Shown here piece by piece: positions 3,117 through 13,382 of a stretch of 35,304 nt of DNA (positions are counted from its first letter, which is position 1; each line of letters opens with the position of its first letter). The stretch is from Candidatus Aegiribacteria sp. (GTDB lineage Bacteria; Fermentibacterota; Fermentibacteria; Fermentibacterales; JCC-6). Both the position numbers and the translations under genes were made by a program. The notes below the pieces were generated by a model that saw only the letters and a list, made by a program, of their open reading frames with translations, did no database searches and was not told where the DNA came from. The DNA is taken from the NCBI GenBank assembly GCA_030600545.1, contig JAUVLV010000025.1, forward strand, positions 1 through 35,304. Direction: 5' to 3'.

Positions 3117-4838
3117 TTACCATCCTGTAATACATACTAATACCGGAAGAACTCCGGCGGTAAACAAGCTTCCATCCGCAATTACTCGTTTTGAAAGCTC
3201 CAGGGGAAAGGGAGTTCTTGCGAGGATAAGAAAACCCGCCGCAAGGCTCAGCAGTCCTGGAAAAAAGGCTGCGGTACTATAGGGAAGATAACCGGATACG
3301 ATACCTGCTACAAGAAGAACCGATGCAAGTGAAAGGCACAGCCAGAACAATACAACACTTCTGGACTTTCCGACATGGATAGGGATAGTATCCATTCCCA
3401 TCAGAGCATCTCCTTGCAAATCAACAATATCTGTTAGAAGGCACCTGCTTAGAAATAGAAAGAATAAAGCTGCCGCCCAGAGCATCGTTCCAGGTGTAAC
3501 AAATTCACCTGCAGATATATATCCGGGCAGAAAAGTAAGCAGAAAGGACCATGCTCCGGCAAACAAAAGGTCCCTGGAACCGGGAAGAGACCTTAATCCC
3601 CCGAGCGGGTATACTTTACGCATCAGCGGTATGGAATACAACAGGAAAAGTACAAGCATCACTCCCAGAATAACTGGCCAAAGTGGATTAAGAAAGACTG
3701 ATAACACAAGGGAACCAGCAAAAGCTATCACCGAAATAACGGTAAGAAGCATACGGTGAATCCTTATGAATTCCTGCCTCCTTAACCTGGACGGGCGAGA
3801 GTATTCGGATTCAAGCACAGAGGTTAAAGTATGAACCGCATACAGGAAAAGCGATGCAGCCATTACAGGCATCAGCCAGTTCACGATATTCAGAATGCAT
3901 GCTCCGGCAGCTCCCAGTACGAATGTTACGGGCAAAACGTGGAAATTACCGAAAATCGCGTTCTGAATGAATTTCCGGATTTGTCCCGTTCTCAGACCTC
4001 CGCCCTGGATTTCAAGAAGCTTTTCCCTGACTTTCCTGATACTCCAGCTTGGCGTGGATGCTCCGGAGGTCAAAAGCACGTTTTCGTATTGTTCCAGTTC
4101 ATCAGCATCGAGTTCTTCGTATGTTTCAATATGATACGAAGGCAGTCCTTCCTCACTGGCTATCTCCACGAGCCTTGCGGTATTCGCGCTGTTCTTTCCT
4201 CCTACAACCACAACACAATTCGCCTTATCGCACAGTTGCCTCAACTCATCCTGACGGAGGCTGGTTGAATTGCAGATAGTGAAAGCGTATTCCAGTTCTG
4301 GAAACTTCTTCTGAAGGGCATTTTTCGTTCTCTCGAATGCTTCCGTATTCTGTGTAGTCTGGGACAGGAGAAACGGTTTTGAGATACCGGATAGAGTCGA
4401 AATTTCATCCGGTCCTGAAATGACCTGCGCTTTTTCTCCGCTGTACGACAGTATTGATCTTACTTCCTGGTGCGAATGGTCACCCAGTATGATTACATCG
4501 TATCCTTCCTGGCATTTCTTCTTCGCTATCGCAAGTACTCTGCCAACCCTGGGACAGGTCAGGTCCCTTATCTTCAGGGGAAGCTGGTTCAATTGCGTAC
4601 ATTTCTCCAGTTCGGTTCCATGGGTTCTGAGAAAAAGAGTGCCCCGGTCCATTTTCTCCGGAGTCATACATATGCTTACTCCCCGTTTCTCAAGGGCACG
4701 CAACACCTGTGGATTGTGAACCAGTTCGCCGTAGACCGCGTATGGATCACCACCTTTCCGCAGCTCGGAAAGGACCATATCAACAGCCCTGCGAACACCC
4801 CAGCAGAATCCGGCAGTATGTGCGGTGATTACGCTCAA
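3117..4838 (-). CDS. ispH: Fusion of IspH (HMBPP reductase) with a UbiA-type prenyltransferase domain
   Basis: Residues 1-285 are IspH/LytB, the [4Fe-4S] enzyme converting HMBPP to IPP and DMAPP in the MEP pathway. The three cluster cysteines are present at about 12 (AGFCWGVRRAVD), 95 (LTCPRVGR) and 189 (TICNSTSLRQ), with substrate histidines at about 41, 73 and 123, Glu125, and the S-x-N pair at 217/219. Residues about 290-573 form a polytopic membrane domain of the UbiA family: the second Asp-rich motif is clear (TDIVDLQGDALMGMDTIP, D510 and D514, counting from the distal ATG), but the first motif is diverged (SVLESEYSRPSR, no Asp pair). I choose a TTG start at 4836-4838: GGGAGAAGG lies just upstream and it gives the family-standard N-terminus with Cys at 12. 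An ATG at 4949 would add 37 unconserved residues. The prenyl acceptor is unknown; residual transferase activity is uncertain. Confidence 0.85.
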   Translation of the reverse strand: MSVITAHTAGFCWGVRRAVDMVLSELRKGGDPYAVYGELVHNPQVLRALEKRGVSICMTPEKMDRGTLFLRTHGTELEKCTQLNQLPLKIRDLTCPRVGRVLAIAKKKCQEGYDVIILGDHSHQEVRSILSYSGEKAQVISGPDEISTLSGISKPFLLSQTTQNTEAFERTKNALQKKFPELEYAFTICNSTSLRQDELRQLCDKANCVVVVGGKNSANTARLVEIASEEGLPSYHIETYEELDADELEQYENVLLTSGASTPSWSIRKVREKLLEIQGGGLRTGQIRKFIQNAIFGNFHVLPVTFVLGAAGACILNIVNWLMPVMAASLFLYAVHTLTSVLESEYSRPSRLRRQEFIRIHRMLLTVISVIAFAGSLVLSVFLNPLWPVILGVMLVLFLLYSIPLMRKVYPLGGLRSLPGSRDLLFAGAWSFLLTFLPGYISAGEFVTPGTMLWAAALFFLFLSRCLLTDIVDLQGDALMGMDTIPIHVGKSRSVVLFWLCLSLASVLLVAGIVSGYLPYSTAAFFPGLLSLAAGFLILARTPFPLELSKRVIADGSLFTAGVLPVLVCITGW

Positions 4839-4966
4839 GAACCTTCTCCCTTTAAAGATATACGCATCCGCGTTTAACATAGCAGAGGACGGAGAGAACT
4901 GAAAATAGAATCGAGAAGGCAGCAGGATAAACACGCCGCCAGAACCCAAAGCCTGTTAGAATCGGG

Positions 4967-5599
4967 TTATCTGATGGAACCCTTGATTGCTCCCCAGCTT
5001 CCTGTTTCCAGTGAAACCGGGAATACTCCATCTGCTCTGAAGAAAGCGTTAATCTCGTATCCCGCCTCCTCCACTGGATTCCATACAGTCAGGTCAGTGC
5101 TGTGAAAACTGTGGGGCGTTCCTGTCCAGTTGTCGAATTCATCGTAAATTACGGATGGAAGACCTTTTGTTGAATATACTGTGGTATTCGCTATCATCCA
5201 GAAGTTTGCTCCTGTTGATAAAGGTATTGAATAGTTCACGATTACAGGTGCATTGTGAAGTGCGGTGATAGTATCGGATGCGAGCCTTATTATGGGTATA
5301 TCAGCGTCACCGGTCCAGAGTTCTACAACAATCTGATCGGTATCCCACGGAAAGTTAACATGCTCGTAAAACCACCATTCGGTGTAGTTACATTCAAAAC
5401 CTGTTGCAACGGGCATGAAATCCGTAACATCGAACCATGTTCCGTAATAATTTATTCCAGGCCATACCCAGGCAGAATTTCCATCATCGTACTGGAGGAT
5501 GTCATCGGTTCCGCCTGTGACAGGATCTTCTACACGATAACTGCCTGTTGCGAAAGCAGAAGCAGTTACAAGAGCAAGAACAACGAGCACCTTTTTCAT
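4967..5599 (-). CDS. Secreted protein with signal peptide and Ser-Trp-Gly-x-Ile-Lys C-terminal tail
   Basis: The 210-residue product has a clean signal peptide (MKKVLVVLALVTASAFA, cleavage near residue 18) and no other membrane segment. The mature part is rich in Trp, Tyr, Asp and Asn and looks all-beta (for example GNSAWVWPGINYYGTWFDV), as in lectin-like or surface-exposed domains, but I recognise no family. The last residues, ETGSWGAIKGSIR, look like a detached short tail after the folded domain and resemble short conserved C-terminal tails on secreted proteins of some FCB-related bacteria; that comparison is from memory. AAAAGGA lies four to five bases before the ATG, and a good promoter (TTGACA, 17 bases, CATGAT) lies upstream. 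It may be transcribed alone or run into the IspH-UbiA gene 128 bases downstream. Function unknown. Confidence 0.7.
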   Translation of the reverse strand: MKKVLVVLALVTASAFATGSYRVEDPVTGGTDDILQYDDGNSAWVWPGINYYGTWFDVTDFMPVATGFECNYTEWWFYEHVNFPWDTDQIVVELWTGDADIPIIRLASDTITALHNAPVIVNYSIPLSTGANFWMIANTTVYSTKGLPSVIYDEFDNWTGTPHSFHSTDLTVWNPVEEAGYEINAFFRADGVFPVSLETGSWGAIKGSIR

Positions 5600-10912: not shown

Positions 10913-13264
10913 CTACCGGATCTTCCACAGTTCAATATCCTCATTGATAAGGAACATGCCCTGCTGTGGCCTTGGTACAGCATTGTCACCCTTAAGAACC
11001 GCGCCACACTCAGGACAGACGTAAGTATTTTCGGTAAGCTCAGCGTCACATTCTGGACATATCATCTGCAATTTTTCATCAATGTATGTCATAAGCTCCA
11101 GCGCGGAAACATAACCGTTTTCGTTGCTGTCTGCATCTCCTCTGGAACCCTGCAGAAGAATCGGAGTAAGAATTCGCTCGCTTACACTCAGATCCTCCCT
11201 GGCGGCAGTTAAAATAAGAACGTTGCTTCCTTCAGAAAAATCGTTAACAAAACCACCTGAATGACATGCGTCAAGGAACAGGAACACCGGTGATACCGCA
11301 AGGGAATCCAGCAGAGACGCTATCCTGTCATCCGATATATCATCATCGTACAAGCAAATTGACTCGTTTGCTGAATCAGGTTCTTCATCCCCTCCCGAAC
11401 CTGGATACGACTGATCGCCATGACCGCTGTAGAAAATAATAACTTTATCCTCGGGTCCAGCGGCATTCAGCAGAGCCGATATTCCGCTTACGAACTCCTC
11501 CGCGGTTGCCATCGCGTCTACCAGCAGTATGGCATGATCAGCTGGAACCCCCTGGTTTTCAATGAGGAAGTTGTACACTTCTACGGCATCCATACTTGCT
11601 CTGTTAAGAACATCGGCTGTAGAGGAGTAACCGCTGATCCCTGCGGATATTGCCCATATCTCCGACTCAGGTGATGGTTCCGCCAGTGCTGTCCTCTCAA
11701 TTTTGTTAACTTCAAGAACGAAAGGTGTCTGCCCGCTCCTTTCGTAGAGATAGACAGTTATCCCGTATTCGGCGCTGTCTTCAGTGTACACTTCTACAGC
11801 CTCATCACCTGCGGCATCAAAATTGCTCATTGATCCCTCCGCGACCAGATCGAAATCAGGGCCGGTAACAAAGAGGTCGAGATCAACGTTCCTGTCCTCA
11901 CCGGAGAGTTCTATATCCAGAATGGTCTCCGATTCCGCCCTGACCGTGAAGAACTTTACAGGTGAATCCTCACTTATCACTCCTCTGTATGCCCCCTTGA
12001 TTTCCATATCATCAGCCCGGGCTATCCGGACAGTAGCCTGGCTCAACGTCTCAATATCTTCGAAGTAGGGATCTATCCATACGGTATCTCCCGCAGATAC
12101 GTACAACAGGAATTCCTCATTCCCTCTTGCAGATGATAACGTGAGAACCGGCTCACCGGCTTCTCTGAACACTCTTACATCTCCGTCACGGGTTTTCTCG
12201 AACTTCACACTTATCATGAACAAACCTCCATGATCCGGGGCGAAACCAACAGGCAGGCTGAATTCGGAGTCAACATTCATAACTTCTTTGACTGGTATAA
12301 GGTTCGAGAGAGAACCCGGATCTCTTGTGTACATTTCGTAAGAAACGCTTTCATTCTCTCCCGGATCGAAAAGAATCACATCCGCAACAGTAACATTCCC
12401 GGCCGGTTCAAGCATGAGTGTCTCAATTGAAGAATAGGACTGGGAACCCATAAGGTACTCACCTGATGCGTCCGAGAGAATGAGATCGATATCGGCTCCG
12501 GGAGACAGTATTGCAAGGTTAAGGAAAAAACTGGATTCGTGCTCAGGTATAAGGTATCGATGGATCTCTCCCGGAGTAATCGATTCTGTCATACCTGAAA
12601 GATCGAACTCAGGGAACTGCCCTGAAGGCTCTATCGACAACCTGTACTTCCCTGAGCCGCTTTTTCCGTATCTGCTTACAACGGCAGTCACGACTTCTCC
12701 CGGAAGAACCGAAACGGTAACGGTTTCAAACCCTTCAAGTGACATACTGCTGCCCCAGGAACTCATGTTTGTGCCGTACACTTCAAGATCAAGATCGGTT
12801 CCTCCAGTACCATCTAGCCTGAATGTCCATCTGCCCCGGTCGTCGGGACTGAAAGTGAATGTTTCCGCCATTACGTTCCTGCCGAGAGCACTCTCAGCGT
12901 CTCTACCGGGAAACAACTCCGATGGATGTACTTCCGCAACAGTAAGCACAGCGGAATCTGAGTGATATTCGGAGTTACACTCAAGATGAACGTAGAACCA
13001 GTAATCGGCGAAAGCTGACAGTATCATATCGCTGCCGGATTCGGACTGGCAAAGAATACCACCGTTTTCATTAAAGGCCTTCAGTTGCATTCCATCCGGC
13101 ACAGATACTCGCAGACAAACGTAATCATCTTCCAGAATACGCACCCATCCTTCTCCCGAAGAAACATCAACGATCGCCTGCTGGCCTGCGGATATTGTTT
13201 CTATTTCCGTGGAACCTGGAAGCACAACAGACAGAATTAATGATGAAAGCAGAATTGACAGCAT
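10913..13264 (-). CDS. Secreted caspase-like (peptidase C14) protease with EF-hand loop and zinc ribbon
   Basis: The protein of about 783 residues has a signal peptide (MLSILLSSLILSVVLP), roughly 500 residues of repeated beta-rich modules resembling pre-peptidase C-terminal (PPC-like) domains (for example GTGGTDLDLEVYGTNMSS and GEDRNVDLDLFVTGPDF), then a caspase-family domain (about 535-715). The catalytic dyad is visible: His615 in FYSGHGDQ and Cys667 in LFLDACHSGG. A 12-residue EF-hand-type loop (DSNENGYVSALE, about 712-723) follows, then a short zinc ribbon with two CPEC pairs (about 736-753). Metacaspase-type enzymes cut after Arg/Lys and many need calcium; specificity here is unknown. 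I use the ATG at 13262-13264, which has AGGAG five bases upstream and yields the signal peptide; the longer reading from 13327 starts inside a repeat. It precedes pheS by 11 bases. Confidence 0.85.
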   Translation of the reverse strand: MLSILLSSLILSVVLPGSTEIETISAGQQAIVDVSSGEGWVRILEDDYVCLRVSVPDGMQLKAFNENGGILCQSESGSDMILSAFADYWFYVHLECNSEYHSDSAVLTVAEVHPSELFPGRDAESALGRNVMAETFTFSPDDRGRWTFRLDGTGGTDLDLEVYGTNMSSWGSSMSLEGFETVTVSVLPGEVVTAVVSRYGKSGSGKYRLSIEPSGQFPEFDLSGMTESITPGEIHRYLIPEHESSFFLNLAILSPGADIDLILSDASGEYLMGSQSYSSIETLMLEPAGNVTVADVILFDPGENESVSYEMYTRDPGSLSNLIPVKEVMNVDSEFSLPVGFAPDHGGLFMISVKFEKTRDGDVRVFREAGEPVLTLSSARGNEEFLLYVSAGDTVWIDPYFEDIETLSQATVRIARADDMEIKGAYRGVISEDSPVKFFTVRAESETILDIELSGEDRNVDLDLFVTGPDFDLVAEGSMSNFDAAGDEAVEVYTEDSAEYGITVYLYERSGQTPFVLEVNKIERTALAEPSPESEIWAISAGISGYSSTADVLNRASMDAVEVYNFLIENQGVPADHAILLVDAMATAEEFVSGISALLNAAGPEDKVIIFYSGHGDQSYPGSGGDEEPDSANESICLYDDDISDDRIASLLDSLAVSPVFLFLDACHSGGFVNDFSEGSNVLILTAAREDLSVSERILTPILLQGSRGDADSNENGYVSALELMTYIDEKLQMICPECDAELTENTYVCPECGAVLKGDNAVPRPQQGMFLINEDIELWKIR

Positions 13265-13278
13265 AAATGCTCCTATCT

Positions 13279-13308
13279 GTTTGGGGTAGTGTTTGGGGTG
13301 TTTGGGGT
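13279..13308. repeat. Three copies of GTTTGGGGT beside the inverted repeat
   Basis: The nine-base unit GTTTGGGGT occurs at 13279-13287, 13291-13299 and 13300-13308; the second and third copies touch and the third runs into the left arm of the large inverted repeat. It lies between the caspase-like gene's ribosome site and the hairpin. The repeat is directly visible; its role (end of a mobile repeat, or a protein-binding array) is not known. Confidence 0.7.
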
Positions 13309-13382
13309 CAGACTTAACTTGCGGCACTTACTCTAATAACATCCTAATAATTATGTAAGTGCCGCAAGTTAAGTCCGACCCC
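13304..13382. repeat. REP/MITE-like palindrome with 28-base arms
   Basis: The left arm (13304-13331, starting GGGGTCAGACTTAACTTGCG) and right arm (13355-13382) are inverted copies with one mismatch in 28 bases, around a 23-base A/T-rich loop. Very similar GGGGTCAGACTTAA-type ends are known to me from dispersed palindromes linked to REP-associated (Y1/IS200-like) transposases; no transposase is present here. It fills the gap between the unknown 232-residue gene and the caspase-like gene, supplies the stop codon of the former, and on RNA would form a strong hairpin that may terminate transcription or protect the 3' end, although no T-run follows on the minus strand. Confidence 0.75.

Follow-up and report, generated by a model that had tools for sequence, protein, structure and literature searches.

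What is the membrane domain at the C-terminus of IspH doing in bacteria of a fermenting phylum? Fusions of this kind have been seen before. Rao et al. 2015 listed 47 of them, reportedly confined to sulfate-reducing hosts, and proposed a Rosetta-stone reading (PMC4746011). Our literature search found no study of an IspH-UbiA fusion later than that one. What is new here is the fixation of the fusion in a fermenting phylum, together with an argument from gene content against a quinone role. The window, meaning the whole stretch of DNA that was analysed, is 35,304 nucleotides from a Candidatus Aegiribacteria sp.

The first-pass annotation had the coordinates of the gene right and left its strand unmentioned. 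The gene lies on the minus strand (1722 bases), and a plus-strand reading of the same interval was ruled out by its many stops. The TTG start recurs in relatives with a similar ribosome site. The features are as follows.

3117..4838, minus strand: ispH-ubiA fusion gene, 573 aa, a single open frame from the TTG start at 4838 to the TAA at 3119-3117
4846..4850, minus strand: ribosome-binding site GGGAG, 7 nt 5' of the TTG; GGGAG/GGAG-like before the TTG in relatives
3996..4838, minus strand: IspH (LytB) domain, residues 1-281 (PF02401, TIGR00216, PDB 3dnf)
4803..4805, minus strand: cluster Cys12, invariant in 44 homologues
4554..4556, minus strand: cluster Cys95, invariant in 44 homologues
4272..4274, minus strand: cluster Cys189, invariant in 44 homologues
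3990..3995, minus strand: short linker, residues 282-283; pLDDT below 50 at residues 281-283 in the full-length model
3120..3989, minus strand: UbiA-fold membrane domain, residues 284-573 (PF01040, AlphaFold2, Foldseek 7bpu, 4od4, 6m31)
3798..3824, minus strand: eroded first Asp-rich motif TSVLESEYS, residues 339-347, aligned to NDIFDIEID of DGGGP synthase
3408..3431, minus strand: intact second Asp-rich motif DIVDLQGD, residues 470-477; D477 invariant and D473 nearly so across the family

The gene order pheT-uvrB-secreted protein-ispH/ubiA-SH3 lipoprotein-purB-GGDEF-like is largely retained across the phylum. Between uvrB and ispH-ubiA lies a small secreted protein (4967-5599, minus strand), which keeps its position in much of the phylum and is fast evolving, with 36-65% identity. 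Elsewhere in the window, a large protein (10913-13327, minus strand) has a C-terminal stretch that looks, by eye only, like a caspase-type peptidase (HG...DACHSGG).

The distribution of the fusion was examined in a same-order comparison set of 41 genomes belonging to the same genus, family or order. Matches to the fusion were present in 40 of them, and in 37 of the 41 the fusion is one full-length frame. The exceptions are G008 and G010, where it is cut at contig ends, and G013, where it is broken in a poor assembly; G036 had no fusion match at all. Full-length fusions are also found in 20 genomes from 20 other families, and in one other phylum 15 of the 17 genomes searched have one. The relatives that bear the fusion include Candidatus Aegiribacteria, Sabulitectum, Fermentibacter and other Fermentibacteria. 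These are members of Candidatus Fermentibacterota (formerly Hyd24-12), in which the fusion is fixed and is the rule for the whole phylum. An artefact, either a frame error or an assembly join of two adjoining genes, has next to no probability: its one point of support is G013, where the halves lie on two contigs, but that assembly is 61% complete in 390 contigs, whereas the frame runs without a break at residue 285-290 and is unbroken in the same-order and other-family genomes just counted, and the same junction and gene order recur across independent MAGs. The homologues are thus not always separate genes, and the single frame first proposed from the sequence of one genome is real. At the G013 locus itself (L021, G013:C231) the frame stops after about residue 420 with the remainder on the other contig, which may represent a broken gene or an assembly chimera.

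Descent was examined with a tree of IspH domains comprising 37 fused and 20 single sequences, those of Rao et al. 2015 not being among them. The fused IspH domains cluster on this tree (4 changes versus 16.8 in shuffles), and a single clade for all of them was not rejected (p-AU 0.646), branch support being weak.

The N-terminal half had been described as a complete IspH with its cluster cysteines and substrate histidines, and this description holds. The whole ORF matches PF02401 (LYTB/IspH) at E=5e-79, the domain scores 246.6 bits against TIGR00216 (cut-off 187.85), and its closest solved structure is PDB 3dnf (E=3.5e-48). Residues C12, C95, C189, H41, H73, H123, E125, T162, N219 and S261 show no variation across 44 fusions; in the 3dnf alignment those from H41 to S261 correspond, in that order, to the E. 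coli substrate residues H41, H74, H124, E126, T167, N227 and S269. The source genome has no second IspH, the fusion being the sole copy, and it also encodes IspG, one polyprenyl-diphosphate synthase and UppS. Because all the site residues are invariant, no other IspH is present and these other genes are in place, the IspH half very likely functions as the final enzyme of the MEP pathway. Compared with three close relatives, dN/dS is about 0.08-0.12 for this half and 0.13-0.19 for the UbiA half.

The UbiA half is hydrophobic (residues 284-573), and its family match is weaker. PF01040 (UbiA) is matched by the whole ORF at E=4e-7 with 29.9 bits, under the Pfam cut-off of 34.2, and at E=1.1e-7 when the domain is searched alone. 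UbiA is matched by 22 of 22 aligned homologous domains (best E=6e-19), and the G039 homologue, at 40.9 bits, stands above the cut-off. AlphaFold2 gave a pLDDT of 90 for the domain, and the predicted whole chain had a pLDDT of 90.5 and a pTM of 0.85, the placement of its two domains relative to each other being provisional. With the domain model, Foldseek returned 7bpu and 4od4 at probability 1.00 (TM 0.56-0.69, with E only 1.5e-3), so that DGGGP synthase and Aeropyrum UbiA are the nearest solved folds. These results bear out the membrane UbiA fold claimed in the first-pass annotation. The HMGCR-UBIAD1 complex 8djk was also among the fold matches, which reflects the shared UbiA fold alone.

A search of the family profile against PDB sequences returned DGGGP synthase (7bpu, 6m31) as the only match (E=1.1e-6), and this match fixes the motif register of the UbiA half. 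DGGGP synthase differs from it in being a stand-alone protein with an intact NDxxDxxxD. In the profile alignment, residues 339-347, TSVLESEYS, take the place of N-D-I-F-D-I-E-I-D; the first Asp-rich motif is diverged, as had been suspected. In Fermentibacterota the Asn and two of the three Asp of this motif are gone and one acid is left, which within the phylum is Glu, or Gly in L035/L036. Outside the phylum most fused families retain the Asn, and many have N-xxx-D. The second motif, DxxDxxxDxxxGxxTxP, is retained family-wide, and R465, W430, P438 and D555 are strongly retained; a second phylum with the fusion has lost the leading Asp of motif 2. Both Asp sites thus erode, differently by lineage, around a retained core.

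Could the UbiA half prenylate a quinone? Among 17 Fermentibacterota genomes, none had MqnA/D, MenD or, over cut-off, DsrA. The sole other UbiA above the Pfam cut-off in Fermentibacterota is a decaprenyl-phosphate phosphoribosyltransferase (274 bits against NF008977, cut-off 234; three representatives typed), and this assignment rules it out as MenA. It belongs to the same superfamily as the C-terminal half and differs in being stand-alone, in keeping its first motif intact and in moving phosphoribose rather than prenyl. From the lack of both menaquinone routes tested (MqnA/D and MenD) and the identity of the other UbiA gene, we rejected quinone prenylation as the role in this phylum, where it is unlikely, barring an undescribed quinone route. 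An archaeal-type lipid route in Fermentibacterota was ruled out as well, since PcrB (GGGP synthase) was absent over cut-off from the same 17 genomes, with two weak partial matches below it. Sabulitectum silens is described as a strictly anaerobic obligate fermenter (PMC5763382).

These searches produced some further observations. DsrA is present in three other fused genomes (G097, G120 and G260), in agreement with the sulfate reducers of the literature. PcrB (GGGP synthase family) is over cut-off in two other fused genomes, and G044 has stand-alone DGGGP synthase-like UbiA genes besides, which hints at archaeal-type lipid genes; the loci behind these observations are L153 (G044), L152 (G193) and L040. 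Genes like decaprenyl-phosphate phosphoribosyltransferase, over the NF008977 cut-off, were found at G000:C33:21047-21535 and at L041-L049, and this suggests a decaprenyl-phosphoryl-pentose pathway outside Actinobacteria.

What, then, might the UbiA half do? We lean tentatively, a little short of an even chance, towards an active IspH anchored in the membrane, with a UbiA half that would bind or sense prenyl diphosphate as an anchor and would not prenylate quinones. The sole HMBPP reductase would be made as one chain, its C-terminal UbiA fold holding IspH in the membrane. The active IspH half would yield IPP and DMAPP at the membrane face, as a source for the UPP pathway, and the UbiA half would still use its second Asp motif to bind prenyl diphosphate, most likely serving as both anchor and prenyl-diphosphate binder or sensor, so that IspH output might follow demand. 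We favour anchoring with prenyl-diphosphate binding over an active enzyme, by a small margin, because motif 1 is eroded and motif 2 is kept. Against an anchor or sensor, motif 2, R465, W430, P438 and D555 are kept as they would be in an active enzyme.

Such a mode of working would resemble the control of HMG-CoA reductase by the UbiA-family protein UBIAD1 (PMC4374513, PMC8641950), and no homology is claimed. In both cases a UbiA-family membrane protein is coupled to a reductase of an isoprenoid pathway; UBIAD1 and HMG-CoA reductase are separate proteins of the eukaryotic mevalonate pathway, and the likeness is an analogy only. Perhaps a degenerate prenyltransferase has become, in the UbiA half, a sensor of prenyl diphosphate controlling MEP output within the same chain, a bacterial counterpart of UBIAD1 in working and not in descent, but we consider so specific a role unlikely.

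The alternative that survives best is a bifunctional protein, in which IspH would make IPP and DMAPP and the UbiA half would prenylate a non-quinone acceptor with DMAPP or a longer prenyl diphosphate. This is possible, if clearly short of even. It is near the proposal of Rao et al. 2015 (PMC4746011), and it would account for the family-wide second motif, for the Asn-xxx-Asp of motif 1 in most members outside the phylum and for purifying selection on both halves. However, in Fermentibacterota motif 1 has lost the residues described above, down to the last acid in L035/L036; no tested menaquinone or GGGP route is there to supply an acceptor; the second phylum no longer has the leading Asp of motif 2; and Rao et al. 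did not succeed in obtaining the full-length protein in active form (PMC4746011). The first-pass annotation had imagined the first and last parts of prenyl metabolism on one chain, an idea already in Rao et al. 2015. The joining of the two halves stands, while the "last part" is unproven, the usual quinone acceptors being seemingly missing.

A bare membrane anchor, with ligand binding lost from the UbiA half, would fit the eroded motif 1 and the weak UbiA match in this lineage. In a bare anchor, though, nothing would keep R465, D473, D477 and D555 from drifting, and they are invariant or nearly so; the dN/dS of this half also speaks against it, and we regard this explanation as improbable.

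Anchoring with prenyl-diphosphate binding remains our preferred reading, and its setting can be compared with that of the fusions described before. The Fermentibacterota protein and the fusions of Rao et al. (PT_UbiA_5, PMC4746011) are alike in domain order, length class, IspH cysteines and anaerobic hosts, and both have a UbiA domain of about nine helices at the C-terminus of IspH. They differ in their hosts, sulfate reducers there and here Fermentibacterota without DsrA or a tested menaquinone route, and in their motifs: the UbiA half of the earlier fusions is reported to have two DXXXD repeats, of which the Fermentibacterota fusion keeps the second only. In IspH-RPS1 fusions, too, anaerobes carry an IspH that is extended at its C-terminus, but that extension consists of ribosomal protein S1 repeats and lacks a membrane domain.

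For the role of the IspH-UbiA fusions described in 2015, the simplest idea is that they feed a quinone prenyltransferase. Because the fusion is the only IspH in fermenters that have neither a tested quinone pathway nor another prenyl-transferring UbiA, that idea is removed for this phylum, quinone prenylation being unlikely here. The eroded first motif of the Fermentibacterota proteins would make them a natural comparison for distinguishing between an enzyme, a sensor and an anchor.
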